A stretch of DNA of 64,000 nucleotides from Mesostigma viride (lineage: Eukaryota; Streptophyta; Mesostigmatophyceae; Mesostigmatales; Mesostigmataceae): the NCBI GenBank assembly GCA_009746045.1, contig RPFO01000941.1:1-64000 (forward strand). The letters run 5' to 3'. The translations under genes were made by a program, and so were the position numbers. Every line of letters starts with the position of its first letter. Within the stretch, counting starts at the first letter, position 1. Below the pieces are notes generated by a model. That model saw only the letters and a program-made list of their open reading frames with translations, was not told the DNA's origin and made no database searches. Of the stretch, positions 19,401 to 48,904 are shown in pieces.

Positions 19401-19543
19401 CCCTGCTGGGACCGGTTCTGGCCCTGCTGGGACCTGTTGTTGTTGTTGTTTTGGCCCTGTTGGGACCTGTTGTTATTGTTGCCCTGCTGGGACCTGTTGT
19501 TGTTGTTGTTGTTGTTGTTGTTGGGGTTGCCATGCAGGGGCAC
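15656..19543 (-). CDS. E2 pol: zinc knuckle-INT-PR-RT-RNase H polyprotein (1295 aa)
   Basis: This is an intact frame. Residues 1-60 are Asn/Gln-rich repeats. A CCHC knuckle (CLRCFQRGHARHNC) is at 69-82. The integrase has HHCC around 184-224 and D249, D304 and E334 as the DDE triad, with an SH3-like tail about 425-485. A retropepsin-like domain follows with DTQAQVSV (D615) and LLGEPF near 678-683. RT starts about 820, with TDIKRAF (D894) and WHGDDQL (986-989) where YxDD is expected. RNase H has MDSS, SAECRA, TDSQS and DNPADALTK. It overlaps gag by about 200 nt in the -1 frame, so it is probably made as a Gag-Pol fusion by frameshifting. It makes cDNA and inserts it. Confidence 0.93.
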
Positions 19544-21975
19544 ACGGTGCCACGTGTTGCCACGCCCCTGAGAGCCACTGCCCCCTTGGTGGGAGGACTT
19601 GTGGGTCTTGGGTGCCCCCCCTGGCTGGCCTGCCCCTTGCGTTTGTGGCCTTGGACACCCTGGACCTTGGGGTCCTGGGCCTGGTTGTTGCCAGTACCCA
19701 GGGGGTCCACTGCCTCCTCGATATAGAGCATGGCAGCTCTGAAGTTGTCCCAGAGGGACTTGAGGCCTGTAAGCAGGGTAGCCAGGACAGAAGGTTGCAA
19801 ATTAGCTTTTGTTAGCCAGGTGTGGATGAGATACCTTGGTTGGAGCTTGAGAAGCTCAAGGTCTTTCTCAATCATTACCCTGTATGTTTTTGCATCCCCA
19901 GAGAGGTTATTCTTGTTCACCTTATATGCAGCAAGCCAGTTGAAACGTTCTACTGCTTCCATGTGGTTATTGGTAAGCACTAGCTGTTTCAGATCAGTGA
20001 TAAAGGTAGGCCACTGTTCAATGGCTGCTTCAGGTGTCAGGGTACGTTCCTGATAGGTTTGAATCAATGCTCTGATTGCAGGAGATGATTGATGGAATGT
20101 GGAGGAGGCCCTGAGAGCCTTAAACTGATGTCTAAGGTTAAGACCTTCCATCCCATACTCCAAAGCAAAAACAAATTGCTTAGCTTGTTCAACAGTGTGA
20201 CCCTCAGGCAAGCCAGCAATATTGATTTTGGATTCCTTTTTATGAGGGTTAAACACACCTGTGAGAGGGGGGTTGGCCCTCAAGAAGCTGTCGGTTGCTT
20301 GTTGCAGGCGGGTGGGGTCCAGGTTGATGGTCCCCCGCTCATACCGCGACATCAGGGCGCGCAGGCCCTCGACAGTTTGCAGCTGGTTAGCTGTTAACTG
20401 CTGATCTTGCAACGAGGCCAGCTGGGCCTGGAGAATGGCGAGCTGTTCCAGGACATCCCCGCTCCTTGGGGGGGCCTCAGCAGGCCTGTTGGGTGCCTGT
20501 GGCACCTCTGCACCTCCCCCCAGGGCCTCCTGGGGTCCTGGCCACCCCCCCTGGTTTGGGAGGGGGCCCCAACCCACAGGGCGAACCTGGGGTGGTGGGG
20601 GAGGGGGAGGGGGGGTCATGGTGGCCCTGGGGGAGCCCGGGGGTGTCCGGGTAACCCCACTGGGTCCAGCCCCATCGGTGGAGGGGCGGGCAGGGGTGTC
20701 TGCCTCTGCTCTCCTCCTGGCCTCCTCCCGCATGAGACGCTTCATCTCCTTGCGTACCTCATGCTCCCGGAGGGCTGCCTGAAAAGCAGCCTCATCCTCG
20801 GGTATGTCAGGGAGTGGTTCTCCCATGATCATAGCAGGCCGGACTGGACAGTCCGCCTCTTTGCCCTTCCTCGCGCCCAGGGCCAGCAGTCCCTCCTTGT
20901 ACTGCAGGGGTTGGGGGGGAGAGGGTTTCTTGCTGGTGGTTTCCAGCGGGGGGGCTTCTTCAGCTACCACCCCATGTTTGGCCAAGATGGCCTCCGTGAC
21001 CCTGGCTTGGGTGATGGAGGACATGGTTTTAAAGTGTGCTGACCGAGCAAGCTCGGCCAGGTCTTGACTGTCCGCATAGTCCATGGGATAGTCAGCATTT
21101 TTTAAGAGGTCACGTAACCGCTGGGTGGCCTCGCGGTACGCGTCCGCCATCGCCTGGTGGGTAGCCAGGCGACGGGCGGCTTCCTCTTCATATTCTTGCC
21201 GCTTAGCGGCGAGCCGAAAAGCCGCCTCTCGGCGGACCTCTCGGTCCCGCTGCCGCGCTCGGCGTTCTTCATTTGCCACCAGCGCGGCCTGCTCGACCGC
21301 CAGGAGCGCTGGGGTAAGATTGATCTCAGTCTCCCCATCGGGGAGACTGGCAGTGTCGGATACCTCATCGTCGGACATTGGTTGTCCGGCGATGGGTTCC
21401 ACAGGTTTTCGCACCACCCGTGCGAGTTTAATACTCTCCATGTCCTTCTTCTTGCGAAGAAGGGACGCAGAGGGTCGCCCAAACGTTAGCTCAATGTGGT
21501 TATGTCCCTGGGCGAAAGGGACATTAAGGTTTGATGTGGCGGGACGAAAGGTAATCGTCCCGTCCGGTGCCACCGAGGCCGTCTGACGGGGCATACGCTC
21601 CCGAAGAGATGGCAACGTGGGGCCGGACTGTGGAGCCTCAGTGGGGTTTACCACCGAGGTCTCCGCAGCCATGGCCGCGCCAGCCGTGGTTGCGGCTGGG
21701 GCGGCCGCCGGAGTCGAGGGTAAGCCGGTCTCCCCGGGGGGAGCCGTCTCGGCCTCCGGCCTCGCAGGGGAGGGGGGTAGGTCGGTCGGCTTTGCAGCCG
21801 CCGTCCCCTCGTCCTGGCAACCATTGTGAGTCTTTTTGTTCTTTTTCTTTTTCTTGGAAATGGCCGCATCGCCAGCCGGCTTCTTGTTGTTGTCTCTGGG
21901 CATCCGCCGATCCTGCCCATCATCATCCTCGTTGTAGGTAAGCTTCTTAGCGACATTCTTGTTCGTGATAGCCAT
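19342..21975 (-). CDS. E2 gag (877 aa)
   Basis: This is an intact frame starting MAITNKNVAKK 18 bases after the 5' LTR. The N-terminus has a Lys-rich cluster (SKKKKKNKK) that could be a nuclear signal. The middle is charged and coiled-coil-like (EERRARQRDREVRREAAFR). A Pro-rich linker follows (PPPPPPPQVRPVGW). The Gag core starts around INIAGLPEGHTVEQAKQ, a phrase shared with element A (GLPEGHT). The C-terminus is a Thr/Arg-rich repeat read from (AAC)n. The zinc knuckle is not in this frame but at the start of pol, so it is present only in the frameshift product. It would form the particle shell. Confidence 0.87.
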
Positions 21976-21993
21976 GGTAGCAAATAAAATTCA

Positions 21994-22465
21994 AGTTAGA
22001 ATGCGGTGGGATATATTGCTTGAGAACACTGAAGCTTGGAGCAATGAATTGCTTGGTTCATTAGAAAATAGGTTTACCCTTTATCAACGTTCCTCTCACC
22101 GGCTGCGCCGCCAGTGACCGTTGGGTGCAGACCGTTGGCCCGAGGCCACACGATGACAGGTAGCCGTCTAGTCACTGCATCGTGCGATCACAGATCAATG
22201 CACGCTGCAGTACGGTCCCTATCTAGGATACTCTAGTACCGTCCAATGACAGGACACTACGTATACTGGGTACTGACATCTGTCACGTACCTCAGTACCC
22301 AAAGTACCTATCTAGGGAAACGTATGCGACTCGACTAGCATTCCTATCTGCATAGCCCACGTGGTATTTATATTCACGTACCAACGTAGGTTTACAAGGC
22401 TTATTCATACGTTGTATTCACAATGCCTTTGAGACTTAGTCTACAGCAAAGCATGGAGACTAACT
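21994..22465 (-). repeat. E2 5' LTR (472 bp)
   Basis: It is the partner of 14811-15282. Only 18 bases separate its end from the gag ATG at 21975. The bases after the LTR (TGAATTTTATTTGC) do not match a common tRNA 3' end. Confidence 0.93.
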
Positions 22466-27395: not shown

Positions 27396-28049
27396 AGTTA
27401 GCATATTGGGGCACCAATGTGCTAGATGGATGCAGGTTGAGGAGACCTTTCCAACGCCGTGTCAACCGCCTAGAACAGACAAGGGACTAGAAAGTTATCA
27501 AGTCCCGAAGTACTGCCGACCGGTGGGCGAGGGCGGTGCACACTCAGGGCATAGTGGACAGGACACGTGGCAGGCCGTGCCTGCACAGGCTTAGCCTGTA
27601 CTCTCACGTGACTGGGACACAGTGTACTGAGGGCTCAACGGTACTGTGGCTAGTAGAAGCCAGTAACCAGCCAGCAGGTCTGCAAGGATGTAAGTCCTTG
27701 CAGGACTGTGGCAGGTCCTGTGCTGTCCTAGACACAGGATAGCCAGAGATTCCTGTATGCTGCCTGCAACAAGGATGCAGGGCAGCGATACGAGGCTCTG
27801 GCAATGTAGCGTTGCCCAGCGTTGCTCATGACCGAGGAACAAGGATGGAACGAGGTTGCATATAGCTCGAGGCTCAACGAGGCAACGAGCGTCTTCACAC
27901 ACGAACCTTGGTCGTCACGACGAGTGGCGAGCCTATCGAGGGTCGTAGGCCTGGTGTGAGGATAAAGGTTGCTAGCCAGCAGCCTAGGGTCATTCCAGCC
28001 GGCAAGGACCAGGAGCTCACAAGCTCTGCTGACGAGTTGCTGCGCAAAT
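27396..28049 (+). repeat. E3 5' LTR (654 bp)
   Basis: It begins AGTTAGCATATTGG and ends GCTGCGCAAAT. It has a short hairpin TGCAAGGATGTAAGTCCTTGCA. It is followed directly by CGTACTATTGC, which also follows the E1 LTR. Confidence 0.92.
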
Positions 28050-28074
28050 CGTACTATTGCTTCCAAGCGCTTTC

Positions 28075-28839
28075 ATGTCTGGTTCATCGTCAAGCAGCCA
28101 CGGTGCTGGTGAGGCGAACGAGCAGAGAGACGCGCAAGCGTTTTTCCCCTACCGTAACCAAGCAAACGCTCCAACATTCGTGCAAGCGGCCTACGTAGCG
28201 AGGCACTTGGCAGAAGAGGGGTGGGTGGCGGTGAGTGGGGGAGGCAGCAGGCCAGCGGCGGCGGACCCGATTATACAACGGGCTCGCGTCGTGATTTCTC
28301 CAGGTGAGACGGGGCGAGTGGCGGTGGAAGAGTTGGTGCGCATTCGTGACGCGCTAGCTGAAACTGCTAATCGTGTGGAGGTCGCTTATCAGGGCGCCCA
28401 TATCACGCTTGCCGGTCTCGACCTAGCCAGGGAGGCGCTTAGCCAGATCGTGGCAACAGCGCTCGGCAGCACCAGACTGTTCAACCACTGGGTGGCGACA
28501 GCAGTGCTAGGAGAGGGGGTACCAGACGCCGACATCATCCGGAACGCGCGTGCTCGGGAGGCGGTGAATCCTTGGAGCACGGCAGAGGTATTTGCCCAAA
28601 CCATTGAGAATCTTGTTGCTGTCCTTTTGCAAGAGTCGAGAGGGTACGCAGACAGGTTCTATATTACCACGCAGCCTTTCGGAGTGTACTCCAGGCTTGA
28701 TACACCGAGGCCGGAAACCACCACTGCGTGGGGTCCGGAGGTGGAGATTGTCACGGGGTCGAGAAGACGCCTGAAGACGTCCATTTCGAGTGGACTGACA
28801 AGCCAGAGGGCTCCGTCAAGCGCTCAGCCCAGCAGATAA
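28075..28839 (+). CDS. E3 leader ORF (254 aa), function unknown
   Basis: The start is taken at MSGSSSSSHG, 25 bases after the LTR. Ser-rich N-terminus, then a helical protein (AVEELVRIRDALAETANRVEVAYQG, LDLAREALSQIVATALGS, AQTIENLVAVLL). No known motif is seen. Near 28770 an alternative frame (FEWTDKPEGSVKRS, to about 28885) looks equally coding, so a small indel or splice may alter the C-terminus. A further coding-like frame follows to about 29070. E1 has an ORF in the same place. It may be an accessory or a separate N-terminal Gag. Confidence 0.6.
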   Translation: MSGSSSSSHGAGEANEQRDAQAFFPYRNQANAPTFVQAAYVARHLAEEGWVAVSGGGSRPAAADPIIQRARVVISPGETGRVAVEELVRIRDALAETANRVEVAYQGAHITLAGLDLAREALSQIVATALGSTRLFNHWVATAVLGEGVPDADIIRNARAREAVNPWSTAEVFAQTIENLVAVLLQESRGYADRFYITTQPFGVYSRLDTPRPETTTAWGPEVEIVTGSRRRLKTSISSGLTSQRAPSSAQPSR

Positions 28840-29645
28840 ACGAGGGCGACGGCACTACCGAGACCTACGAGGAGGCAGAGAGCTGATCTGCATATCCCTC
28901 GTGAGGTGACTCACGAGTACGATCGTTACGGCCGAGGCGAGCAGAACGAGCTTGTCGGCGGCGGTAAGCGGTGGGTACGCGACTTGCTTGGCATCGCAAC
29001 CCAGGTGAGACACAACATCCAGTCGAACGCAAGGAGACGGGCGACCTGTGACCTGCGTGCTGGGAGAGTTTAACCCAGACCTCCAGATTGTCGCAGAGGC
29101 AGCAGCAGCCATACCGGTTGCTGAGGGTGTTGAGCAGCGTCCAGACCGTGAGGAGGGGCAGGCGAGTGCAAGCCAGGAGGCGGCCTCGTCTGGAGTAAGT
29201 GCGTGAGCCTGAGTGGGTTCCAGCAACCATATCTGCGTGTGTTTCTGTGGTATTCTATAATGCTTCGTAACACGCGCGGGGCGGCAGCGGGAGCGGGGCG
29301 GGAGCGGGGGATGGCGGGGGTGAGGCAAGGGCAGACACGGGAGGCCCCGCCAACGTCGTGCCAGAGGGACAGGCAATCCCAACGGCAGAGGGCGTCAATG
29401 GCAGGAGGGCATCCAACCGGAAGAGGAAAGAGGTGGCACAAGGGGAGGAGCGTGCAGGGTGGCCAACCGACGGCGTGGTGCTGACGGGGGAGGGCCAGAA
29501 TGATGCTGAACGGCAAGCACCTGGTAAGAGACCATGTGTGCCTCCGTCTGGTGTTCCTGCAGCTATGTTCCTGCGCCATTAGCACCAGTAGGAGCTGCTG
29601 TCATTGGCAGTGACCCTCGTGCTTTGCCTGGGACTAGACCTCATA

Positions 29646-30607
29646 TGAGTGCTGTGGCTGTGATGAATGGCCAGAAGCCTCTCAAGCCTCCTGTGGGACA
29701 GGAAGAGCTAGACAAGTGGTTGGAGGATATGGAGCTAGTTTCATGCTCTGTAGATCCCACTGTCAACCTTGTGCAGGTATTCCACACATCCACGACTAAT
29801 AGGGATTCAAGTGAGCGTGTGAGGGACAAGGCTAGGCAAGCTGTCAAGGACAAGCTGACTTGGTCTCAGTTCCTAGAGGGCCTACGTCAGGAGTTTTCTG
29901 ATAAGGTACTCAACCTCACTAATCACTATAAGCTCAGCTATGATACCTTTGAGATCAAGGGCACAATAGCTGAGGAGCTGCAGCGGCTCACACGCATCAG
30001 GGAGAAGGGGGCCAAGCATGGCTTCAATCTGACTGATAGAGCAGTGGCAGATTACTTCCTGGATCGCATGGGGCTGAGTGTGGATGGGAGAAATGCAGCT
30101 AGGATGTTTGCTGATCAGACAGATGGGACGTGGCCAGCCTTGCAAAAGGTTATTTTCAATATCCGTCCATCTGACAATGCTGCTTGCAAGGCAATCCAGG
30201 TGACTGGTGCCCCTTCAGCCTCCGCTCATCAGGTCCATGGTGACGCCCCTGGGCAGGGTGCTCAGGGAGAAACCAGACCTAGTAGGCGTCAGAGGGCTAA
30301 CAGGCGCAGGCAGAATGGTAACCAGGGTGGCAAGGGCCAGCAGCAGGGATCCAAAGGCAAGGGTCAGCAGCAGGCTGGTGGTCACCAGGGTGGTCAGCAG
30401 AACAAGGGTGGCCAAGGGCAAGGCAAGAGCCAGGGCCAGGGCACCCAGGCCAGTCAGAGCAGCCAGAACCAGGGTGGCCTGAAGAAGGCTGCTGCTGGGA
30501 AGGATGACAAATGCTTTGGATGTGGCAGGACGGGTCATTGGCGACGTGACTGCCCAGACCAGGCCAAGTCTGCTGGAGCAGGCTCTGGCCAGGTGGGTAA
30601 GCCATGA
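29646..30607 (+). CDS. E3 gag with zinc knuckle (about 320 aa)
   Basis: The frame is open from 29534. The start is put at MSAVAVMNGQ because it begins the well-ordered part (ELDKWLEDMELVSCSVDPT). The core is helical (WSQFLEGLRQEFSDKVLN, IAEELQRLTRIREKG). A long Gln/Gly/Lys-rich linker is followed by CFGCGRTGHWRRDC (CX2CX4HX4C). It ends TGA five bases before the ATG of pol in another frame. This is the particle protein of E3. Position and the E1 Gag support the call. Confidence 0.82.
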
Positions 30608-30612
30608 CTTGA

Positions 30613-33600
30613 ATGTTGTCCCCTGTAAATAGTCAATCACCCCTAGTGGGACGAACAGTTGTACATAGTAATGGGGGTGTCCCTCTTGTGCAGCAGCAAG
30701 GGGTTGGGAATGATGAGGTGCTTCCACTCAATGATTGCAATAACGCTGCTGCAGCAGTGGAATTCCCTGTGCCTGTGGCAGGTGCAGGGTCTCCAGTTGT
30801 TGGGGTTGACTCTGGGAGTCAAGCCGCCAGACTGGAAGGACCTGCAGCTTCTGTGGGAACCGGGGCTGGCTCTGGGAGCCGAGCTACCTTGGAGGAGGTC
30901 CCTGGAGCAAGAGAACAGCAGGTGGGTCGTGCTATCCCAAGCACACAGTCTTTGTCACGTTCCTCTCTGTGCAGCCAGGCTGACAGGGGGTTGAGCTATG
31001 CTCAGGCTGGAAACACTCTACACCATATCTTTGGCCACTCTAAGCAGGCAGAGATGTTTGCTTGGAAGATTGGCAAGGAGCCTTTGCTAGAGGCCTGCAG
31101 TGCAGCTGCTCAGAATTGTGTCTGTCAGGAGAATGCTGTTCGCCTCCCACAGTCCCATGCCAGAGAACCTGCTAGAGAGCGGGGGGATATCCAGGTGGAC
31201 ATCCAACACATCAGGGGCATGTATCTGTTGGTGGGGGTGGATAGGTTTAGCAGATATAGGTTGCTGACCATTCTTCCTGGAATGCAGGAGCATCAGCTGT
31301 TGATGGGTCTCCAGTCTTTGTTGCCAGGCTTTGGGGTGTACACCAAGGTGCAAGCTGACTTGCAGTTTGACTGCTTGATCAAGCTGGCTGACCAGCTTCC
31401 TTGTAAGTTGGTAGTGGTCCCTAGGGAATGCCATGGGCAGCAGGGAGCTGTAGAGAGATCTATACGTGAAGTAAAAACAGTGGTGCTAGCAGCTAGGAGT
31501 GTGCCTGTTGTGGCATCAGCTCTAGAGAAAGCAGCTTGGTGTAAGGGGATTGAGGAGCAGCTTAACCACAGGGTAACCTATTACTATGATGGTGTGGCAG
31601 TCTCTCCCCTGGCATTGCAGTTTGGTATGCTATCACAGGACGTGGTGGCAGCCTGCCTGAAGAAGGCAGACAGGGTGTTTTCCAGATTGAGGCGTAAGGA
31701 CAAGGGTTGGAAAATGCTGAGGCCCCAGGTGGGACTGAGGGTCAGGATGTGGAAGGAACCGTCATTACCAGGCAAGCGTGGCAAGTGGCAAGATGGGCAG
31801 GTAACCCATGTTGAGGAAGCTAACCATTCTTGTCTGGTGGCTTTGGAGAGTAATCCCAAGCACGTGTACAGGCTATCCTGGGCTCACGTCAAGGAGAGAA
31901 GGCCAACTGCAATCTGGCCTGAAGACGGCCCTGATCCTCCCTTGGAGGGAGATGAGCAGGATGAGAGCCAGGCAGCAGATGCTAACCCACCATGCTTGGA
32001 TTATGGTCTGTCCTGGATGGATGAGGGTGAGCAGGAGTCTGCTGAGACGTCTGTCACAAGGCCAGAGGTGGCCAGGGCTGCACCACAGTCCAGGGGGCTG
32101 CTTATGGCGGACATCATTCGAGCTCTGCAGAACAGCAAGCGTGATCCCAAGGTATCTAAGCTCACGGGATGGGGGTCATGTGGGGCACCAGCACTAGAAG
32201 TGGATACCAACTCACAGGTGTCCATTCTAAGGGTAGAGGATGCTGCAGGCTTGCAGTGGTCATCCCCTAGCTGCCTAGCTGTGTCTGATTTCTCTGGGAA
32301 TGTGTCCATGAAGATCTTGGGAGAAGTGAGTGTGCCTATCCTGGGGGTGCCCACCACGTTCAGTGTGGTTGAAGGGTATCAGGGGCCTGCCATTCTAGGT
32401 CAGAACTTCTTGTGCTTACCAGGGGTGAGGATATCCTCTGAGGAGCTAGCATTAGAAGGGCAGGGCCGCCTTCCCTTGCAGAGATATCGCTACTCCCAGG
32501 GTCTTAGTGTGGCTGTAAGGGCTGTGAGGGGTCTAGAGGCAGAGGGTCCTGATACAAAGGAGCCCATTGCTGGGGACCTGCTGATCCTCCCTACTACGTT
32601 TGACCCACGTGAGTTGGGTGTGCAGAGGTACCAGATCCCAGGAACGAGTCCTGTACCTTGGCGCAAGCTAGTGGAGATGATGCAAAGCCCCAAGATGGCT
32701 AAGGCATGGACTCTTGGCTTTGTTGCTTCTGGGCATGAGTGGATAGTTGCCAACTGTGCAGAGCCTGTGGATGTCCTCCCTGAGGATCACCAGCTGCTCA
32801 GGTTGATGTTTGTCCTCAAGCTCAAGGAGGTAGATGGCGTGCAGGTGCCACATGTTAGACCAGTTGTGACTGAGTACCATGGCACTGGACAGTTAGCAGA
32901 TGAGGAGCTTTACACACCAGGGATGCTGCATGATACATGGAGGATTTTGTTGTGCATTTACTTGTCTTTTCTGCAGAAGGGGATACCCTATAGCTCTGTG
33001 TTGGTAGATTTCAAGAGGGCTTTTCTTAAGGGTGATCAGCAGGAAGCACAGGATACTTGGCGCACAATACCCCCTTTCTTTGTTAAGGTGCCTGCAGTGT
33101 GGAGGGCAGAGCTGAAGACGAGGTATTTGAGGATTCTCAAAGGCGTGGAAGGCCTTAGATCGAGTCCCATCATCTGGAGGAAGAGCTTGGAGAAGTACCT
33201 CAGGTCTGTCTGTGGTCTCTCAGTCTCTCCAGTTGATCCTTGTCTGTTTCAGGGTAGCTATGAGGGGCTGCCAGCGTTTGCCTCCCTGCATGGTGATGAT
33301 CTGCATCTCCTGGGCCATCCCACTTGGCAAGAGTTGACTCTGGCCAGGATCCAGAAACGGTTTGAACTGGGTAAGATCCAGTACATGGTTGAGAATGAGC
33401 CCATGGTGTTTTGTGGAATGCAGGCGACCTTGGTCCATCAGCAGGGTACATGGTCCATCCAGCTGGAGGGTGGTAAGGATTATCCTCAGCAGATCATAGA
33501 TGCCTTGCAGGAGCCCATCACCCAGGCCAGATGTGCAACAATACGAGGTATGTTGGCATGGCTGGCCAGCATTTGTGCTCCTGACCTGTTGGTACTGAGT

Positions 33601-34200
33601 CGGTTGACCGATTCCCAACTGGTTGAGGTGGGTGCTGAGAGAGTGGTAGAGGCTGTTCGCATGTCTCCCCCTCTCATGCTGGGTCCTTTGGATTTGTACA
33701 GGCCTTTTGACATGATGCTCTATGTGGACAGTTCTATGGATAGTAGGAAGGTCACAGAGGTCAGGGGCCGTGCAGCAGCATTAATATCCCTGGTGCAGGA
33801 ACAGTCCTCTCTGGTCTGCTGGTACAGTCGGTTGCAAAACAGGGTAACTCCCAGCAGTGACATTGCTGAGTGCAGGGCAATCTGTGAAGGGCTTCATACT
33901 GCTCTTTACTTGAGGGAGCTATTTTACCAGCTATGTCAAGTGGCTTCCTGTCGTTTGCAGATGCACACACTGGTAAGAACTGACAGCATGGGCATGGTGC
34001 AGTTTGTGCACAGGCAGCTGGCCAGGAGCAGGGACCTTGATTATTTGTTGCTCAAGGAAATGTCTTGCTTAGCTAACATTGAACATGTGGCTGGCGTGGA
34101 CAACCCTGCAGATGCTCTCACCAAGCTGGAGGAGAAGGCTGAGCTGCAATACCCTTTGCTTCGTGGGCTCATGGCCTCCAAGGGGGGAGGGCCAGAGTAG
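30613..34200 (+). CDS. E3 pol: INT-PR-RT-RNase H polyprotein (1195 aa)
   Basis: This is an intact frame. Integrase has HHIFGHSKQ with CSAAAQNCVC, and the DDE triad in VDIQHIRG, ADLQFDC and GAVERSI. An SH3-like tail has PQVGLRVRMWKEPSLPGK. A retropepsin-like domain follows with LEVDTNSQVSI and AILGQNF. RT has VDFKRAFLKGD and SLHGDDLHLL (HGDD). RNase H has YVDSSMDSR, DIAECRAICEG, RTDSMGM and DNPADALTK. The protease lies after the integrase, as in the other Copia-type elements here. The ATG is close behind the gag stop, so expression could use reinitiation, a frameshift or a spliced RNA. Confidence 0.93.
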   Translation: MLSPVNSQSPLVGRTVVHSNGGVPLVQQQGVGNDEVLPLNDCNNAAAAVEFPVPVAGAGSPVVGVDSGSQAARLEGPAASVGTGAGSGSRATLEEVPGAREQQVGRAIPSTQSLSRSSLCSQADRGLSYAQAGNTLHHIFGHSKQAEMFAWKIGKEPLLEACSAAAQNCVCQENAVRLPQSHAREPARERGDIQVDIQHIRGMYLLVGVDRFSRYRLLTILPGMQEHQLLMGLQSLLPGFGVYTKVQADLQFDCLIKLADQLPCKLVVVPRECHGQQGAVERSIREVKTVVLAARSVPVVASALEKAAWCKGIEEQLNHRVTYYYDGVAVSPLALQFGMLSQDVVAACLKKADRVFSRLRRKDKGWKMLRPQVGLRVRMWKEPSLPGKRGKWQDGQVTHVEEANHSCLVALESNPKHVYRLSWAHVKERRPTAIWPEDGPDPPLEGDEQDESQAADANPPCLDYGLSWMDEGEQESAETSVTRPEVARAAPQSRGLLMADIIRALQNSKRDPKVSKLTGWGSCGAPALEVDTNSQVSILRVEDAAGLQWSSPSCLAVSDFSGNVSMKILGEVSVPILGVPTTFSVVEGYQGPAILGQNFLCLPGVRISSEELALEGQGRLPLQRYRYSQGLSVAVRAVRGLEAEGPDTKEPIAGDLLILPTTFDPRELGVQRYQIPGTSPVPWRKLVEMMQSPKMAKAWTLGFVASGHEWIVANCAEPVDVLPEDHQLLRLMFVLKLKEVDGVQVPHVRPVVTEYHGTGQLADEELYTPGMLHDTWRILLCIYLSFLQKGIPYSSVLVDFKRAFLKGDQQEAQDTWRTIPPFFVKVPAVWRAELKTRYLRILKGVEGLRSSPIIWRKSLEKYLRSVCGLSVSPVDPCLFQGSYEGLPAFASLHGDDLHLLGHPTWQELTLARIQKRFELGKIQYMVENEPMVFCGMQATLVHQQGTWSIQLEGGKDYPQQIIDALQEPITQARCATIRGMLAWLASICAPDLLVLSRLTDSQLVEVGAERVVEAVRMSPPLMLGPLDLYRPFDMMLYVDSSMDSRKVTEVRGRAAALISLVQEQSSLVCWYSRLQNRVTPSSDIAECRAICEGLHTALYLRELFYQLCQVASCRLQMHTLVRTDSMGMVQFVHRQLARSRDLDYLLLKEMSCLANIEHVAGVDNPADALTKLEEKAELQYPLLRGLMASKGGGPE

Positions 34201-34488
34201 ACCAAACAGCCTTGCTCTAGGTGGGAGGCATCCCAGTGGGCTGGGCAGCCACGTGGTGGCTGACAGCAGGTCCTTCAGAGTTCAGACACACTCTGCTGGA
34301 CAGGGGTCAGGGTGGAGTCACTCCCCTGGCTGAGAATTTCGCCTGGCTCGATCTGTCATGGAGCTGCAGAAGAGTCTTAAGGACTTTGTAATGGGCCTTG
34401 GGTCTTCATGGAATGGACCCTGCAAGGGCAGCCCAAGTGTTGGCTCTAACAGGTTGCTGTATATTTGTATATATTCTCTGTAACCAAC

Positions 34489-34694
34489 AGTTACGTTAAA
34501 TAGTGCCGGAACCTTTTGCCGCCTGAGGCAAATCGGTCCGTAACACTATTTTGCCCGGAATAACCACTTCCGAGCACCCAAGTTAATTCGGCCGAATTAA
34601 CTTGGGTGCTCGGAAGTGGTTATTCCGGGCAAAATAGTGTTACGGACCGATTTGCCTCAGGCGGCAAAAGGTTCCGGCACTATTTAACGTAACT
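34489..34694. repeat. Left 206-bp palindromic terminal repeat
   Basis: The centre is TTCGGCCGAA at 34587-34596. The two 103-base arms are exact reverse complements by reading. It is the same as 34827-35032. Confidence 0.93.
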
Positions 34695-34826
34695 AAAACC
34701 TGGCCTCGTGGAGGGGGGACGAAGAGCCCGAGACATCCGCCTAGGCCGCTGAGCACGCACCACTAAATGCGCCGGAGCTGCCTCAGTGAGGATTCGAACC
34801 CCTGACCTCCAAGTTGCACAGGTTTT
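34695..34826 (-). other. 132-bp interior with tRNA T-arm-like motif
   Basis: It is bounded by AAAACCTG and CAGGTTTT. The minus strand contains GGTTCGAATCC (34800-34790), a perfect Pol III B-box / T-loop phrase, preceded by AGGTC as in a tRNA variable loop. No matching acceptor or anticodon arm is found, so it is not a complete tRNA gene. Confidence 0.5.
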
Positions 34827-35032
34827 AGTTACGTTAAATAGTGCCGGAACCTTTTGCCGCCTGAGGCAAATCGGTCCGTAACACTATTTTGCCCGGAATA
34901 ACCACTTCCGAGCACCCAAGTTAATTCGGCCGAATTAACTTGGGTGCTCGGAAGTGGTTATTCCGGGCAAAATAGTGTTACGGACCGATTTGCCTCAGGC
35001 GGCAAAAGGTTCCGGCACTATTTAACGTAACT
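34827..35032. repeat. Right 206-bp palindromic terminal repeat
   Basis: It is the second copy of 34489-34694 in the same 206-bp length and with the same TTCGGCCGAA centre. Confidence 0.93.
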
Positions 35033-35690
35033 CCAACCTGTTGCATGCTAATAAAATCCCTGGTTGTGTGACCATGTTGGACGTGGTTGCCAGGGGCCTC
35101 ACTATGGGTTATACTACTTTATAATAAAACATAATCTTGTTATTGTCATGTCTTGTTGTTTGTGATGCTCAGTTCCAGGAGCTGATCCAAACCTGGAGGA
35201 TATGGGGTGGGGTTCGATTCCCCAGCTGACCTCAGCCTGGCATGTATGAATCCTGAGTTTATCCCTCAGTGAGGACATGGGCTCCCCATGTGTTGGCTAA
35301 CATTTGTCAGGGCTCTCTCAGTCTTTGGAAGGATTTAAAAGATAAAGGAGGCTCCGTGGCGGGCGCCATATGAACGGGCGCCTGTGATAACTGGATGACC
35401 AGGAACTCACAATAGTACGTTCATGGACTCCTCTATCCAAACTCCTCTGACTAAGTGAAGTCCTAACTTTAATCTACACCAGGTTCCCAAAGAAAGGGTT
35501 GGGATGTCATGTGGGTCAGAGGGCAACCTTTGAACCAATGAGCAGGCCTAGCTAATATTTGGAGGCACCTCAGGTTCCAAAAGAAAAGGCAGGTCTGGTC
35601 TCTGGGAGGGATCAGATGTCTGAAGGCTTGTGGGGACAGTGGCTGATAGGTTCTCAGGCTGGTCCAAGCTCCAAAACAAGAAAGGGTTGG

Positions 35691-36344
35691 AGTTAGCATA
35701 TTGGGGCACCAATGTGCTAGATGGATGCAGGTTGAGGAGACCTTTCCAACGCCGTGTCAACCGCCTAGAACAGACAAGGGACTAGAAAGTTATCAAGTCC
35801 CGAAGTACTGCCGACCGGTGGGCGAGGGCGGTGCACACTCAGGGCATAGTGGACAGGACACGTGGCAGGCCGTGCCTGCACAGGCTTAGCCTGTACTCTC
35901 ACGTGACTGGGACACAGTGTACTGAGGGCTCAACGGTACTGTGGCTAGTAGAAGCCAGTAACCAGCCAGCAGGTCTGCAAGGATGTAAGTCCTTGCAGGA
36001 CTGTGGCAGGTCCTGTGCTGTCCTAGACACAGGATAGCCAGAGATTCCTGTATGCTGCCTGCAACAAGGATGCAGGGCAGCGATACGAGGCTCTGGCAAT
36101 GTAGCGTTGCCCAGCGTTGCTCATGACCGAGGAACAAGGATGGAACGAGGTTGCATATAGCTCGAGGCTCAACGAGGCAACGAGCGTCTTCACACACGAA
36201 CCTTGGTCGTCACGACGAGTGGCGAGCCTATCGAGGGTCGTAGGCCTGGTGTGAGGATAAAGGTTGCTAGCCAGCAGCCTAGGGTCATTCCAGCCGGCAA
36301 GGACCAGGAGCTCACAAGCTCTGCTGACGAGTTGCTGCGCAAAT
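35691..36344 (+). repeat. E3 3' LTR (654 bp)
   Basis: I see no difference from 27396-28049. A purine-rich stretch, AAGAAAGGGTTGG, lies just before it and is the likely plus-strand primer (polypurine tract). Confidence 0.93.
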
Positions 36345-37935
36345 GGTGCAGCAGTTGTTGCGCAGGCATCATGCCATCGACTTGGTAATTGCGGGTTGGG
36401 AGTGCCAGGGCCTGAGCCAGGCAGGGCAAGGGCGGGGGCTAGCCGATCCGCGTAGCGCGCTGTTCTGGGAACTGTTGCGTGTGGTGGGACTGTTGCAGTC
36501 GCGTCAGCCCCATCCGCCTGCGTATCTGTTTGAGAACGTTGTGGCGGGTGACAGCCCACATCAGGCGGTGCGGGAGGACTGGGCTACAATCGTGGCACTC
36601 CTGGGGGAGCCCATCGTGTGCGACAACGCAGGGCTGGGTGGGCTCACGCATCGTTTGCGTGCCTATTGGACCAACGTGGCGTGTGCGACCGGTGTGCAGG
36701 CGGTCTTGGGGGCCGTAGCAAGGCAGCATCCGAGTGTGTCTGCGGAGGTAGCATTGCCTTCCCACCTAGTCACGCAGAAGGTGGATAGCGAGGATCGCCC
36801 ACCGTATGCACGCGTCAACCGGGTCGGGAGCCCCATGTGTGCACTGCCGACCCTGGTCAGTTACCAAGGGTCGACAGCATACCGTGATCGGGGTAAGGGT
36901 CTCGTTTGGGACACTACCACCGGTCTGTTGGTGCAGCCACCCGCAGAATTTCGTGAGGCCAGCATGGGTTTTCATGTCGGGGCCTCGGCGCTGCCGGGCG
37001 TGCTCGAGAGTGAGCGCTGGTCTTTGATAGGCCAGGCTATGTCGGTGTTGCAGGTCGGGTATGTGCTGCTTGCATCGGTTGCCGTGCGCCAGTCTGGGGG
37101 GGCGTCCCCAGCCAATCCGCCTCAGCAGGTTGAGGCGCGCGCAGCCAAACTGAAGCGCCCTGCAGCGACGGGGACTTCATCAGCATGGGGGTGGCGTCTG
37201 CGACAGGTGTGGACTATCATTCTCATGACCGCCCTGCTGACCAGCACCCTGCTGGCCGGCGAGCCCACGCTGCATCGGGTAATACACCGGGCGGCACGCG
37301 AGGCTCCGGCGGTGGGTGTCACACCAGGTGTGGCAGCCTTTTCCTTGTTCCATGACGATGCGGCTAGGGCGCCGCATCTTGAGGCACATGCGGTAGCTGT
37401 GGGTGATCCCGCGGATACGCACCCCTGGGCTATTGGCGAACACCTTTCTGATGCGCAGCGCTCAGCCATGCTAAAGTGGCTAGGCACTGCAAGGGGGGCC
37501 TTCGCTTTCACAAGTGATGAACTGGGGTGTTTCAATGGTGGGACCATGCGTGTTCCATTGGACACTGACACTGCTTTGTTCCGACGCCAGCATCGCCTGA
37601 GTCAGGCCGAGTTGGATTTTGTAGCCGAGCAATGCAAGGAGTTAGAGGATGCCGGTATCATCAGGCAATCTTCCTCCAGCTATGCTGCTGCCGTTGTCGT
37701 TGCGCCCAAGAAGGACGCTATCACCGGGGCATGGACGGGTATGCGCATGGCCACCGATCTGCGGTTGCTGAATGCACACACACCCGTGGACCGTTACCCC
37801 ATGCCACGTGTGGATGATGTCCTGGATAAGATATCTCCTCATGTGAAGTTTGTGTCCTCGCTGGACCTGCGTAGCGGCTTTCATCAGATCGCAGTTGCGC
37901 CGGAGGATCAGCGGAAGCTTGCATTCTGGGGGGCG
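36345..37935 (+). pseudogene. G1 methyltransferase C-terminal part, hydrophobic segment and RT start
   Basis: This continues the G1 DNMT across E3. Motif IV is VIAGWECQGLSQAG with the catalytic Cys. Motif VI is AYLFENVVA, motif VIII is HRLRAYWTNV, and the last helix is WSLIGQAMSVLQVGYVL, matching motif X. After a short linker, WTIILMTALLTSTLLAG is a strongly hydrophobic segment also found in G2. RT then begins (SQAELDFVAEQCKELEDAG, DLRLLNAHTPVDRYPMPRVDD, SSLDLRSGFHQI). A base is missing in a G-run near 37930, which shifts the frame before the catalytic YIDD. Confidence 0.88.
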
Positions 37936-38708
37936 GCAATTTGTATGAGTGGGTGCGCATGCCCTTTGGGCACCGCAACGCTAGTGCTGTTTTCCCACGA
38001 GCTATGGACAAAGTGCTTGCAGGTCTTCCTTTCGCCGCTTGTTACATTGATGATGTCATCGTCTTTAGCGCGACATTTGAGGAGCACCTGGCGCACTTGG
38101 AGCAGGTTCGCTTGACTCTCGAGGAGCATAATATGCGGCTGCACCCTGAGAAGTGCAAGTTCGCCCAGCGGACCCTCTCATTCCTTGGTCATCAGATTGT
38201 GCCGGGTGGCCGGACGCCTGATGCCGCCAAGGTCGAATCCATTGCGCAGGCCGCCGTCCCCACGGATGTCTCAGGGGTGCGGGCGTATTTGGGTTTGGCT
38301 GGCTATTACCGAGGTTACATTGAGAACTTCAGCAGCAAGGTGAAGCCCTTGACCGAGTTACTCAAGAAGGGGTGCCTGTGGGCGTGGGGTCCCGCACAGC
38401 AACGCGCCATCGAGACAATCAAGCAGGAGCTCACGTCGGCACCGATTCTGCGCGCCCCTGACTATGCTTTGCCATTTGTGTTATATACCGACTGGTCCAA
38501 GGTAGGACTGGGTGCAGTCTTGGCGCAAAAGGATGGTGATGGGCGCGAGCACGTTATTGCTTATGCTAGTCGCAGCAACAACCCAGCGGAGAGCCGGTAT
38601 TCTTCCTATGAGGGGGAGGCACTGGCTGTGGTGTGGGCCATCAAGCACTTTCGCCCGTATTTATTTGGGCGCGTGTTTACTCTGGTGACAGATCACCAGC
38701 CGCTTCAG
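37936..38708 (+). pseudogene. G1 RT catalytic part and RNase H, truncated
   Basis: The frame after the 37930 indel reads YEWVRMPFGHRNASAVF and PFAACYIDDVIVFSAT, with intact YIDD. The connection domain follows (GVRAYLGLAGYYRGYIENFS). RNase H has YTDWSKVGLGAVL, SYEGEALAVVWAIKHF and ends at TDHQPLQ. In G2 the same protein continues with WLMTSANLTGKLARW. Here it is replaced by Copia sequence at about 38708. Confidence 0.88.
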
Positions 38709-42548: not shown

Positions 42549-42927
42549 AGTTAGTCTAAGTCTCCCGCCTGTAGCCTAAGTGGACACGTGCCAGCACCGC
42601 CGGCGCCCAATTGGGTACTGGGACGGTGCTGGACTAGTGCAGTCGTGGCATGGACACGTGGCTAGACTCAGTATGTGATGAGCCGGTACCTCAGTACCGG
42701 GACTGTAGTTGTCATGTTAGGCCTGACTAGATCAGGTTGTAACTGATAGGCTAGTCCGTCCAGGATCAGTAAGTTAGGCTTAACTTACGCAAAGTCTGGT
42801 CAGCCGCAAGTGACGGCTGACCAGCAGTATATGTGCCCTTCTATCCTAATGCCAAGGTGTCTCGTCGTTCACGCACACACGCCATTTGGCAGTGCCCAAG
42901 CATTCCAAGCTCAGTGTGTCCATAACT
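42549..42927 (+). repeat. Element A 5' LTR (379 bp)
   Basis: It differs from 51423-51801 at one position (GCAAGTGACGG against GCAATTGACGG). It contains a GGTCAGCCGC / GCGGCTGACC-like hairpin and GCCGGTACC / GGTACCGGC-like palindromes. Confidence 0.93.
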
Positions 42928-43032
42928 TGCATTAAAAAACTCCATAAAAAAGACACACGTGAGAAACGACGAGCGTGCAAAGCGTGCATTTCGCAAAAAC
43001 CTTCATTTTCTACACCCCATCTTTTTCAAAAA

Positions 43033-45470
43033 ATGTCTAACCCAAATGCTAACAAGGGTAAGGCTCCAATGTACCCCAGGAGCCGGTCCAGCACTCCGAC
43101 GTCCTCGTCGTCAGGGACGTCGGACTCGGAGCTCGCCGCCCAGGCTGAGATTGAGCGGGCGGCTAGGAGCTTCAATCAGTCTATGGAGGCTGACCCGTCG
43201 ACGTCCGGGACGTCCTCATCGGGCCACTGGTCCGATGGTTCTTATAGCAGCGTTGTGCTGCGAGTGCCCCTGTATCCGCAGGGGAGGGGATCCACGCCTG
43301 TGGTGAACAGGCCGAGGGGTCCTCCCTACGCCCCGACAGCTGCAGCGGCGGGGGCGGGACCTTCTGCACCTCCTGCAGAGGAGGAGTCCATGGAGCTGTA
43401 CGGGCTGCAGCCGGGTTCCTCAGCCGAGGAGCAGGACGACGCCCGTTCGCGGCAGGTGGCCGCAGATGAAGGCTTCGCCAGGGCGATGGCTGAGCGCGAG
43501 GAGAGAGAGTTTCGGCGCGCGGACACGCACGCTCGTGCTCGCGCCCAGCAGAGGGCGGATGCTGAGAACGTGCGCCGGGCGTTGTTTCGCAGCGATGTGG
43601 CTTCTGGCGAGGAGCAGTTTGAGGTGATGCGTCGGGGGGACCTTGCATGTTTTAAGAGTCTGCGTCGGTCTCGTGAGCCGAAGGTACACCTAGGTGTGCA
43701 TCAGGAGTTGGAGTTCTCTTTGACAGGTCCGTCGGGGGCATCTGCTGAGGACGAGATCCTCATGACCCCGGCAATGGTGGCGCGGGAGCGTGAAGCGCAG
43801 AAGCGCATGGAGACATTCACAGCCGACAAGCTCCGTCGGCAGGCGCGGAGGGCCGCGGCAGAGGCCAAGAAGGAGCGCGAGCAGGCGGAGCGGGAGAGGC
43901 AGGTTGCGCTGGCGGAGCGCATCAAGCTCAAAATGTCGATCACCCAGGTGCGCCGGGACCGGATGGTCCGCGAGCTCAGGGTATGGAAAAAGGCGCAGGC
44001 GATGAAGCTGCAGCGCATGGCTGAGATGGAGGCGCCTGGCAGGCAGGAGGCGCAGGAGCGTTACCGACGCTCGCTGGCACGGTGGGAAGCCAATGTGGGC
44101 AGGATGGAGGGGCGCATCCTGAAGCAGCGACGACGCATGCTCAAGCATGCACGTAAGACAGCGGTGAGGGGACCGCTTGGTGAAGCGGTGAGAGCCGAGT
44201 TTGGCCTTGGGGCGGATGAGGATGTTTCTGCAAGCCAAATGTTTTATTATTTGTCGCAACCCAAGAAGACCATCACCAACCGTGATGGCACTGCCGCACG
44301 CACGCGTGTTTACAGGCAGCCTGGTGCAGCCGGGCCGTCTAACCTGTCCAACAGGGAGGACATCATCGAGCAGCTTCAGCTGGCGCAGGCCATGCTGGAA
44401 GGCGACCATCCGCTGTCTCCCGGCGAGCAGGAGAGGTTGGCCGACACCGTGACCAGGCTGGTGGCATCGCTGAAGCCGGTCAAGCGCAGGGCGCAGGCAG
44501 AGGCATGCGCACCGCAGCCAAAGCGTAGGAGGGACGAGGGGGCGGATGGCGACGAGGGGGGCAACCAGGGCGGGGTAGGACACGGCACCCAGGAGTCTGC
44601 ACCAACACGGCACGAGGGCGGTGAGCGGCAGCAGCAGCAGCAGCAACAGCAACAGCAGCAGCAGCAGCAGCCGCCTGCGGGAGCGACCACAACCTCCAAC
44701 ATGGCCTTGAATAGGCCCAGGTTTGATCCAAAAAAGAAAGAGGACAAGCTAGTGTTCCCGGGTTTGCCAGAGGGCCATACCCAGGACGAAGCTAGGGAGT
44801 GGTTGTTTAAGTTGTCACATGCCTATGCTAGTGATAATGTCCGTGATTGGTTTGCCTCTCTACGTGCGTCCACACCCATCCATCAATCTGCCAAGCCTAT
44901 CCAGCAGTTGGTACAATTGTACCAAAAGCGTGCCAGCAGCGGGGTAGACGTGGCAGAAAATGTGTTGTGGGCGCAGTTCATGGTTGATCTTAGGGCACTT
45001 GTTACCACGGGGGAGCACTTAGAAGTGCTTAAGGGCTTCCAGTGGATAGAGGCCTATAAGGTCAATAAGCGTGACTATGTGAGTGACAACAAAAAGTATG
45101 TCATGTACATAGAGGGGATGAGGAGCTGAAGAAGCTCAATGCCAAGTACCTAGTACACCTATGGCTACAAAAGGCAGAACTGGACCCTACCACCCTGTCA
45201 GTAATCCTGGCAGGTCTGAAGGATAAGTGGGAGGACTTCAGGAAGGCAATGGCCTATGTGCAGCAATGCCTAGAGCCGTTTGCTGCTGCAGCCAAGGATG
45301 TAAAGGTGAAGCAGGTAAAGGGGGAGGAAGCCTCAGGTACGGGGCTCTCCAAGAAGCAGATGCAGTCGCTGGTGGCCCAGGTAAAGGCGGTAATGGGGGG
45401 GATAAAAACAAAAACAACAAAAGTGGGGGAGGTGGAAACAAGGGGGGGGAAAGAACAATAACAATAAAAA
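43033..45470 (+). pseudogene. Element A gag, frameshifted
   Basis: The frame is open from inside the LTR. The start is put at MSNPNANKGK (43033). It is Ser/Pro-rich, then a charged coiled coil (QARRAAAEAKKEREQAERERQ), a poly-Gln run (about 44628-44670) and the Gag core (LVFPGLPEGHTQDEAREW), matching E2. One base is missing in a G-run near 45118, so the frame stops at 45129. The expected continuation is seen in the next frame. Confidence 0.85.
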
Positions 45471-45534
45471 CAGAAAACAAAGTGGGGGAGCTAGCAAGCC
45501 AGGGGGTGCTAAGCCAGCAGGGGGGGACAAGAGG

Positions 45535-47141
45535 TTGCCTCATGACCCCACCAAACATTGCACTAGGTGCCTTTGTAAGGGGCACCTAAAAGATGATTGC
45601 TGGAAAGGCAAACCCGACTATGGTTCTGACGTTGATGTTTGTCCTGGATGCTGGAAAACACGTCACCCCATTGCAGCAGGAGCGCGCTGCACGGCTCCCA
45701 GGCACAACAAGACCACGCCAGGGCGCTACAACCGCGCGGGGGCGGCAGACCAGGGAGACTCCTGTAAGCTACCCTCACCATTTTTCACAAATGGTTTCCT
45801 GTTGCCTTCTGTCTGCCAAGTGTTGCCTGAGTGTGATGATGTGGATTGGGAAGTGGCATATGACATGACACTGTCACACATGATGCGTGACCCCACCATA
45901 GCTTCCCTTAATGCAGCAGCAGAAAAGGTAATCACGTATGGTGCTCTAGCAGAGCAACTGCACAAGGTTATGGGCCATGAGGCTGTGGCTGAAAGGCTAG
46001 CCAATAAAATACAAGGCCATGATCTGGAACAGATGTGCAGGCACGTACGTAAGCACTGTGAGCAATGTCAGCTATATGCTCCTAAGCCCAGAAAATGGCA
46101 TGTGGCCACACCACCACTGGCTAGAGGCAAACTGGTTGGGGATGTTATACACGTGGTGAAGGACACGGTATACTACCTAGTCATAAAGGATGCCTGGTCA
46201 AGGTTTGTGGTAGTGGAGCCCCTGCCTGGGATGGATAAAGAGCAGCTGCACAGAGCTTTACAGATAGCCTTGGCACGTTTTCACCCCATTGAAAAAGTAA
46301 TGCTGGATCAGCAGTTTCTCTGCATCCAGGACAGGAATGACCTGCCCAAGATAGAAGTGTCTGGGGCTCAAGATCATGAACGTCAGGGGTTGGTAGAACG
46401 TACCATGAGAGCCATCAGGGATGTGATAAGAAAAATGCCATCCAGGTTGGCTGACTCTGGTAGCTATGCTGACAGGGCATCTTGGGCAGCAGGGGTGACT
46501 ACCCAGCTAAACGCCAAACCAATAATGTCCTCACCTTTTGGGGAAATCACCCCAACTGGCCTTCAGTCAGGCAGCTATGCTTCAGAGGTACACACTCACT
46601 ACAACACACAAAGGCAGCACTTAGCCAAGTTGCTGGCAAAGAAAGACAAAAATAATGCCAGGCCTGTGTTTGAAGTGGGGGACCATGTGTTGTTTTTCAG
46701 AGAGGGTGACAGAGGAAGAGCACACTCTGCCAGATGGCACGGTCCAGCTGTAGTCACCAAAATTCATGAAGAAGGGACTGCAGTCACTATACAACATGAC
46801 AGAGAGCGTGTGGTCAGCAAGCATAGACTCAAGCTTTATTACCCACCACTGGCAGACGTGTCAGGGGTAGAATTCTTGGACATGGATTCAGAGCAGGAGT
46901 CTGGTGGATTGATCTCACCCAATGAATTGGCTAAGGACGTCATTGATGCAAGCACTAGCCGCACCACAGTAGAAGCTCCTGTGTTCCTCAGTAGTGCAGC
47001 CCCACTACAACCCAATAGTCCACCTGGGCAGGAGGACGGTGCACAGGGTGAGCAGCAGGTAGCCCCTCCCTCACACCTGGAGGAGTCACAAAATAGAGCA
47101 GATCCTGTCGTTCCCAGGAAGTCATTTGCTGAGATTCTTAA
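45535..47141 (+). pseudogene. Element A pol, first part: zinc knuckle and integrase
   Basis: CTRCLCKGHLKDDC is the CCHC knuckle, followed by a second Cys/His cluster (CPGCWKTRHPI). Integrase has HKVMGHE with CEQCQ, and DDE residues in VGDVIHV, MLDQQFL and GLVERTM. An SH3-like tail has FEVGDHVLFFREG. The frame runs into the TTAA element after SFAEIL. Across the insertion the frame would continue directly into the protease part (at 48905), with no base lost. Confidence 0.9.
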
Positions 47142-48900
47142 TGTCTAATCACCAAGAAAATGTCCTCAAATGAGGACATTTTCTAGCATGGATACCATTT
47201 GTAATAACTAACACATGTCAACACATCCATGGGTACGGCATGGAACCATGTTCATTTATGATATGTTCAAGAGTTGCAATGCTTAACATCCATGAAATAT
47301 GCTCATTGTATAATTGTTTACGATTTATTCATGCAGGGGGGTCGCTACGCGAGTGACCAAATAGCACTCAAGTCAACAATATGCCAAGAAAGAAGGCATG
47401 GCCAGGTCATGGCTGGTCCTGAAAATGCACCCAGGGTGCCCACAACATGTCTATGTTACACCCTCGCAGTCCTAGACCCTGCAGCCTGCCAGGGGGGGGG
47501 GCACAAAATGTAACTGGCAGCCAGGGACCATGGTGCAGGCCAAACAGCGGGTGTAAAGCTAGCTCAGTCCAAAGAGTGAAATATGATGCAAAAACTTGCC
47601 AAGGTTAGGTCCATGATCGTTAGTAGAGGCTCGGCTGCCACCACGGTGCTAAACCATCATGTTGAACCCTTACGTTATATATGAAACATATACTGCAAGG
47701 AGGCACAAGTTGTAACACAAGCACAATGTAAACATGACAAGCTCAAGTTTCTGAGCCAGTCTTGATCACTTGGACATGAGTTGAAGCATTAGAAACATAT
47801 GGGCAACATACCAGCAAGCCTTGAAAAACTTCTCAGCAACAAGGCAGTATATGTGTTGAATCAAACTAGCACATCGCAATTAAGCACAGCGACTTCTAGT
47901 TGCTGCTGTTTTGATAACGCAAGGCCGTTTACCTTTTCAGTGACGCAACGGGAAAAGAAAGTACCGCCCAGCAAACTTCCGTTATCCCCGGACATAAACG
48001 TAATCAAAACCACGAAGTTGGGCATTGAAAGCAACCGGAATTATCACGTCTGCGGGAGTTATAGGTTACAATCCGCTTAACACGCTTACTTAGAACGATG
48101 CGGTTGAGAATGACAGTCGGATCCTTGTTCTTTACGTGCGCCCAGGCCGCCAGCTGCGCGGGCCAGCTCAAGAAATATATATTAAAGGACGGTGACGCGT
48201 GGGAAGCACCAAGCCTTGCGGCAAAAGAAAAATCTGGCTCGCGCTCGCCCTGGTTTTCGCCAGGCGCGACTGCGACATCACGACGAAAAAATAGAGACTC
48301 TTTGACGCATGCAACTGCCCAGGTCCCTCTTCTCCCCATGTCGCCCATAAGCCCAGAAGCGTACCATAACCCATACTCGCGATATCCGCAGCGCCTGGGC
48401 GGAAAAAGAAATTGTAAAACCGAACTGCGAACTGACCTATCATGCGATCTACGTAGCTCTCAGATTTTCTTCAACAATGCCAAAATCCGTTCATGAACAA
48501 AATTTTCGACATATACAAAGCACCTGCACGTGAAGAATAGCATCTTCGAAATCACTAGATGACGATCTAAAATGCTGTCTTTGTCCGGGGCAAAATAATG
48601 CCCTATAACATTCAGGCAAGCCTCGGAACTGGCACGACCCCATAGCCGCCACTCGACAAAACACTCGATTGCATTGCGATGTTCTTGCTATTGTAGGTAC
48701 TTTTCGTCGCCTCATATTTTCCAGGTACGGTCGACCCCTGTCGACCCCAGGGGCTTGGCGCGCTCAGTACCTATCCCAGTTTCGCGCCAAAACCCACCAA
48801 GTGACCCTAGGACCAAATTTGGCGCCAAAACCGCGCCCCTGACCCCCCCCGTCTCAAACGAGGACTATGTCCTCAAATGAGGACATTTGGTTTTTGGACA
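47142..48900. mobile_element. Non-autonomous TTAA (piggyBac-like) element, 1759 bp
   Basis: It is flanked by TTAA at 47138-47141 and 48901-48904. Ends are imperfect inverted repeats: left TGTCTAATCACCAAGAAAAT, and right TGTCCAAAAACCAAATGTCC read inward, followed in both by a TGTCCTCA/TGAGGACA palindrome. TTAA targeting is typical of piggyBac. No transposase ORF is seen. The interior holds only short frames. It interrupts element A pol between integrase and protease. Confidence 0.85.
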
Positions 48901-48904
48901 TTAA

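Follow-up and report, generated by a model that had tools for sequence, protein, structure and literature searches.

The genome of the green alga Mesostigma viride carries hundreds of tiny mobile elements that end in perfect palindromes, some of them mirror-symmetric from end to end. One such element occupies positions 34489–35032 of a 64,000-nt stretch (positions 1–64,000, forward strand, of contig RPFO01000941.1, assembly GCA_009746045.1; hereafter the window). It is 544 bp in length and has the layout P-I-P, where P is a 206-bp palindromic terminal repeat and I a 132-bp interior. The best explanation as a whole is that it belongs to a non-autonomous P/I family, which would be inserted by a borrowed Copia-type integrase and whose palindromes would be renewed by fold-back copying; we regard the balance for and against this explanation as about even. 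The parts of the element, in window positions, are:

34484–34488, no strand: left target-site duplication, CCAAC (single copy at six of six empty sites)
34489–34694, no strand: left terminal repeat P, an exact 206-bp palindrome, ends AGTTACG...CGTAACT
34695–34826, + strand as defined in this analysis: interior I, 132 bp, itself a rough inverted repeat
34790–34800, − strand: B-box-like motif GGTTCGAATCC, kept at the same place in the interior (J) of a second family
34827–35032, no strand: right terminal repeat P, same sequence as the left P
35033–35037, no strand: right target-site duplication, CCAAC

Anatomy and genomic copies of the element

Each P in the window is its own reverse complement, with 103-bp arms and no loop, and as RNA is predicted to form a hairpin of −201 kcal/mol, a fold that the sequence-only reading proposed as a source of small RNAs. 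The two copies are the sole loop-free exact palindromes with arms of at least 12 bp in the whole window, which excludes a chance origin. A sequence-only reading of the window had described two identical, exactly palindromic 206-bp repeats around 132 bp, bracketed by CCAAC, and the coordinates and self-complementarity bear this out. It had also claimed an empty site, under a label (E6) that is not identifiable. The empty state was confirmed independently: the element sits near the 3' end of a host long terminal repeat (LTR) retrotransposon (27396–36344), and all six other copies of this retrotransposon that were fetched (of 40 scored matches) read straight through a single CCAAC. A second empty site occurs on contig C446, where an insertion of the form P-I-P-I'-P (L059, duplication CGGGG) lies in one arm of a chromosomal palindrome while the other arm is empty, the arms agreeing over 443 bases up to the insertion. 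The chromosomal palindrome itself (L059/L111, dyad near 1028355, exact arms of at least 443 bp) is unrelated to P.

The motif GGTTCGAATCC in the interior is called B-box-like by what we take to be the box B consensus of RNA polymerase III (Pol III). Its meaning is uncertain because two further places in the window (581 and 35211) carry a motif of the class GGTTCGANNCC. ARAGORN reported no tRNA gene in the window element, the joined unit included, and no convincing box A was seen in it by eye; the motif hints that Pol III may transcribe the element. Rfam gave 14 matches to the window element, all below gathering scores and none of them a ribozyme.

The search for further copies covered 440 Mb in 2,243 contigs. 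The 25-base terminus of P has 1,753 exact occurrences genome-wide (878 + 875), and viral contigs held no exact match to it. Sixty-nine sites were sampled, distinguished by the 15 bp that flank them on either side; a few could be alleles of a single insertion (e.g. L020 and L033), the set was partly picked by likeness to the window copy, and arrays within 25 bp of a stretch end (e.g. L016) were removed before counting. An exact 5-bp duplication particular to the site brackets 60 of the 69, one has 7 bp in a C run, and for eight none was found by script. In one of these eight (L028) the duplication GGAGG is present once the half that belongs to the second family is recognised. Target sites show no more than a weak base preference. 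Apart from fragments, the sampled sites form ladders P(I P)n, n ranging between 0 (solo P) and 6, and arrays with more units are longer than 1 kb. The commonest sampled form is P-I-P-I'-P (882 bp), of which five fetched loci, at three distinct sites, are exact palindromes over the full 882 bp; the window copy stands at the short end of the series.

The order of the interiors is strongly biased, all + units lying to the left of all − units in 50 intact arrays against three that break this rule (15 against one among the 16 damaged arrays). The 50 rule-following intact arrays comprise one solo P, eight P-I-P (including the window copy and L028, the latter afterwards shown to be a hybrid), 28 P+P-P, two tandem two-unit, seven three-unit and four larger arrays. 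These counts match two arms of independent length, for which 25.9 two-unit arrays of the P+P-P kind are expected. A less biased set, 22 of 30 clusters among 100 P termini listed, consists of nine intact and two damaged P+P-P, four intact P-I-P and one solo P, the remainder being three-unit, composite or damaged. An absolute polarity was rejected, as a targeted search gave at least 17 full-length minus-plus centres (40 scored of 903 candidates). Seven such sites were fetched, one a simple minus-plus element (L126) and six larger alternating arrays; six have a 5-bp duplication and the remaining one is cut by the stretch end. Polarity is strongly biased but not fixed.

P elements are real mobile elements. 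An assembly artefact was rejected, since the arrays are bounded by site-specific 5-bp duplications and empty sites exist. So was the chance neighbourhood of two independent miniature inverted-repeat transposable elements (MITEs): the P/I borders are constant in more than 100 units, and there is no inner duplication. The sequence-only reading had named both as outcomes that would overturn it. Its picture of a miniature element that combines terminal repeats with palindromes stands as to mobility, but the layout of the window copy is not the most frequent one, and the features that define a terminal-repeat retrotransposon in miniature (TRIM) are not evident (see below).

Arm symmetry and a second family

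Symmetry was examined in 189 full-length copies of P, a further 17 copies with indels being set aside. Eighty-two are identical to the window P and 107 are variant, yet 45 of the variant copies are exact palindromes of another sequence, and at 286 of 382 variant sites the complementary change is present in the opposite arm. Arms differ on average by 0.51 within one P, by 0.90 where they flank an I, and by 1.75 between elements. The summed mismatch within P (96) lies below the lowest value (121) reached in 1,000 permutations within elements. Interiors are identical in 12 of 27 two-unit pairs, compared with 22% of random pairs from different elements.

The second family came to light in L028. 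Its terminal repeat, Q, is another exact 206-bp palindrome, and its interior, J, is 236 bp long. P and Q arms are identical in 76 of 109 aligned columns (70%) and share palindrome length and layout, while I and J are alike mainly at both ends, the B-box-like motif lying at nearly the same place. The common Q terminus has 778 exact occurrences (393 + 385). Ten Q arrays were fetched from 40 scored of 329 candidates, mostly chosen for paired, identical J matches; all ten have a duplication (nine of 5 bp, one of 6 bp in a C run), and their layouts are Q+Q-Q in eight (one with a damaged J), + − − in one and − − − in one. Seven of the ten, each at its own site, share a single sequence that is an exact palindrome of 1,090 bp, suggesting that a burst took place very recently.

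L028, a single case, is a two-family hybrid in which one duplication (GGAGG) encloses the structure Q-J+-[q|p]-I--P. Its central repeat consists of a full Q arm, runs 1–2 bases beyond the Q centre and then continues as P from about 5 bases before the P centre. The right half of this repeat and the outer P share a variant near position 18/189. Most simply, copying would have jumped from one template to another at the tips of hairpins, and the resulting molecule would then have been inserted; a subsequent conversion that stopped right at the edge of the element is possible but calls for more coincidence.

Terminal signals, probable route of insertion and proposed renewal of the palindromes

The ends of P (AGTTA/TAACT) and its 5-bp duplication agree with those of LTR retrotransposons in the window, and the ends of Q (AGTTAG/CTAACT) coincide in all six bases with those of one local LTR family. 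The LTR elements in question are:

27396–36344, + strand: host LTR retrotransposon, LTRs 27396–28049 and 35691–36344, duplication GGTGC
14811–22465, − strand: LTR retrotransposon of a possible helper type, LTRs 14811–15282 and 21994–22465, ends AGTTAG...CTAACT, duplication GCCAG
42549–51801, + strand: LTR element of a possible helper type, LTRs 42549–42927 and 51423–51801, ends AGTTAG...ATAACT, duplication CACGC

The sequence-only reading had matched the ends of the window element to local Copia LTRs. This holds for the start (AGTTAG in all three elements, each with a 5-bp duplication), but for the end (TAACT) in only two of the three. A shared terminal signal and a 5-bp duplication, as expected of an element mobilised by a Copia-type integrase, are present. 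A borrowed integrase plausibly moves P elements because their AGTTA/TAACT ends match local LTR ends and the duplications are of equal length, and a Copia-type integrase is most likely what inserts P and Q elements alike, to judge from these signals. Within another Q lies a further nested insertion that starts with AGTTAACG and terminates in CAACT, flanked by the duplication AATAT.

Coding matches in the LTR elements are as follows. The host retrotransposon encodes a zinc knuckle in 29534–30607, and 30613–34200 has weak matches to RVT_2 (E 0.0022), which we take to be a Copia-type reverse transcriptase, and to rve (E 0.16). The element at 14811–22465 matches RVT_2 in 15656–19543 (E 1.2e-4, under the Pfam cut-off). 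That at 42549–51801 matches the integrase core rve in 45535–47148 (E 1.7e-5, likewise under the cut-off), and its Copia membership is not established.

For an autonomous partner, 100 of the 1,753 P termini and 100 of the 778 Q termini were listed and a sample followed up; all of the latter lie within P or Q repeats or fragments thereof. Two wide-spaced (~8 kb) pairs of Q termini were considered as a Q-ended autonomous element and rejected, as they are Q repeats split by later insertions (L129, contig C1:11064400-11072800, and L130/L131, contig C2). One split copy holds an LTR-type element with 412-bp direct repeats, the other an insertion with AGTTA/AACT-type ends (only the ends were fetched). 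These termini also bear on the notion of a palindromic MITE, which an unknown DNA transposase would mobilise with 5-bp duplications. Terminal inverted repeats, a short non-coding body and exact palindromes would suit it, but the end motif and duplication length coincide with those of LTR elements, and no autonomous element came to light among the sampled termini, the two split Q pairs included; we consider it very improbable.

The preferred explanation may be set out in steps. A resident Copia-type integrase would act in trans on AGTTA/TAACT ends, giving the 5-bp duplications. The arms of each palindrome would be copied from one another repeatedly by fold-back (hairpin) DNA synthesis, through which variants would become symmetrical and whole elements could become exact palindromes. 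The matched arm changes are seen directly, whereas the polymerase and the timing of this copying (before insertion or in the chromosome), as well as any RNA step in the life cycle, we infer. The two-family hybrid would best be accounted for if copying had switched from one template to another at hairpin tips prior to insertion, and exchange between P repeats probably produced the ladder of sizes.

Several observations weigh against this explanation. The host retrotransposon begins AGTTAG, but its right end is CAAAT and not TAACT; the Copia domain matches in the LTR elements of the window are weak and under Pfam cut-offs; and no autonomous partner with P or Q ends turned up in the sample of termini. 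For the best 26 two-unit elements, arms on either side of an interior resemble each other as closely as the arms of one P, and the mirrored halves show no excess likeness. Symmetry is therefore not renewed over the whole family-1 (P/I) element at each jump, and many family-1 elements are thus mosaics, not fresh fold-backs. Two narrower proposals for family 1 were discarded: that every two-unit element has newly arisen by folding back one half, which the comparison of arms and halves does not support, and that the centre is a special switch point, there being no peak at it.

The in-place alternative holds that template switching at forks after insertion homogenises the arms, that the founder had two units, that the ladders come from unequal exchange, and that insertion is ordinary. 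Template switching of this kind, homogenising inverted-repeat arms, is described in excerpts of PMC8604942 and PMC8794818; single exchanges from P-I-P-I'-P yield the observed classes (28 two-unit arrays against 25.9 expected), and likeness falls off smoothly along the family-1 element. On the other hand, a hybrid joined at the centre within one duplication requires a conversion tract that ends within the last few bases of the element, and the exact 1,090-bp palindrome, present in identical form at seven sites, means that the perfect form itself multiplied. We judge this alternative unlikely.

Fold-back renewal with a borrowed integrase also has a more specific version, which we regard as doubtful: a hairpin-primed mini-retroelement whose own palindromes replace the tRNA primer and whose product is inserted by the Copia-type integrase, a chromosomal life cycle resembling rolling-hairpin replication. 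The terminal palindrome would fold and the 3' end of the hairpin would prime copying, so that each round would restore exact arm symmetry, add units of one preferred polarity and be able to jump to a different template where the hairpin turns. This version fits the lack of an evident primer site, the matching of arm changes, the bias in polarity and a hybrid joined at its tips, but most of these facts are also explained by an inherited founder layout combined with unequal exchange and template switching in place (PMC8604942, PMC8794818). The P/Q elements are natural replicates for how palindromes stay perfect. They bear on whether hairpin copying takes place during transposition or in the chromosome, and on whether an LTR integrase is able to carry cargo that has no standard primer site.

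Other features of the window and assembly were noted in passing. The host retrotransposon adjoins a DNA (cytosine-5) methylase-like coding sequence (Pfam match, open reading frame 36343–38115), which it may interrupt. A large inverted repeat at 49076–54665 has arms of 1,001, 863 and 463 nt, 98–99% complementary and nested around 51.8 kb; it perhaps represents two LTR elements in opposite directions. There is a minisatellite of CCCCTG-type units at 12140–12336 and a tandem repeat of 157-bp period at 8459–8836. Elsewhere in the assembly, contig C2011 (G000), which measures at least 1.4 Mb and holds numerous different tRNA genes, is perhaps from a bacterial associate or a contaminant. A 205-kb contig is plastid-like, and its rbcL comes nearest to the Rubisco chains 8q04, 9hvm and 1gk8, the last of them from Chlamydomonas.

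Comparison with known systems

P/Q elements could readily be misannotated as tandem TRIMs or MITEs. The window element agrees with TRIMs in being non-coding and shorter than 1 kb (544 bp), in having direct terminal repeats within the range of ~100–250 bp (206 bp), and in its duplications, which are of 4–6 bp in TRIMs and of exactly 5 bp at the 60 sites given above. TRIM definitions, as excerpted from PMC10886601 and PMC6934838, also require a tRNA primer site and a polypurine tract. By inspection, no conserved TGG start follows the left repeat in I or J in either direction, although this was judged without the full tRNA set of the host and an unusual internal tRNA primer would escape detection. 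Nor was a polypurine tract seen in the last 17 bases of I and J in either direction, unlike in two of the three local LTR elements, which have one before the right repeat. With neither a standard primer site nor a polypurine tract in evidence, the P element resembles a TRIM anatomically but is not classified as one. A retrozyme was rejected, Rfam finding no hammerhead ribozyme in the repeat.

An ordinary TRIM would have a Copia helper and tRNA-primed reverse transcription, P being an LTR palindromic by chance and the ladders arising by LTR-LTR exchange. The direct terminal repeats, small size, 5-bp duplications and LTR-like ends accord with this, and the tandem P(I P)n arrays resemble those reported for TRIMs in excerpts of PMC6934838 and PMC7215508. 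It is nevertheless improbable: apart from the lack of an evident primer site and purine tract, interiors are mostly inverted rather than tandem, and matched pairs of changes often distinguish the two outer repeats of an insertion, although LTRs made by LTR copying start out alike.

Fold-back elements and palindromic MITEs form another class for comparison. Like these, the 882-bp and 1,090-bp forms each make up one inverted repeat from end to end; unlike them, they have nested 206-bp palindromes as terminal repeats, LTR-type ends and ladders. No element with palindromic LTR-like repeats was recognisable in the open-access literature searched.

Closer in some respects are the TRIMp3 elements Helenus, Ajax and Cassandra, which in the excerpted accounts (PMC10886601, PMC7215508) are likewise tiny and non-autonomous, with LTR-like repeats and sequence resembling small-RNA genes. 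Plant and fungal Helenus also have 5-bp duplications, and Cassandra also forms tandem arrays (PMC10886601, PMC7215508). P elements differ from TRIMp3, so far as those accounts describe it, in their exact palindromic repeats, mostly inverted interiors and lack of an evident primer site or polypurine tract. In TRIMp3 the tRNA-like motif (Pol III boxes A and B) stands in the LTR, whereas P elements have a lone B-box-like site, in the interior. The biv-TRIM paper (PMC6934838) cites self-priming LTR elements such as Tf1, and a Tf1-like self-priming might be supposed for P elements. According to the excerpted text of that paper, biv-TRIMs resemble P elements in forming arrays of the type TDRx-I(x-1), in having no clear tRNA primer site and in the inverted repeats of their interiors; their terminal repeats are not described there as palindromes, while those of P elements are exact palindromes.
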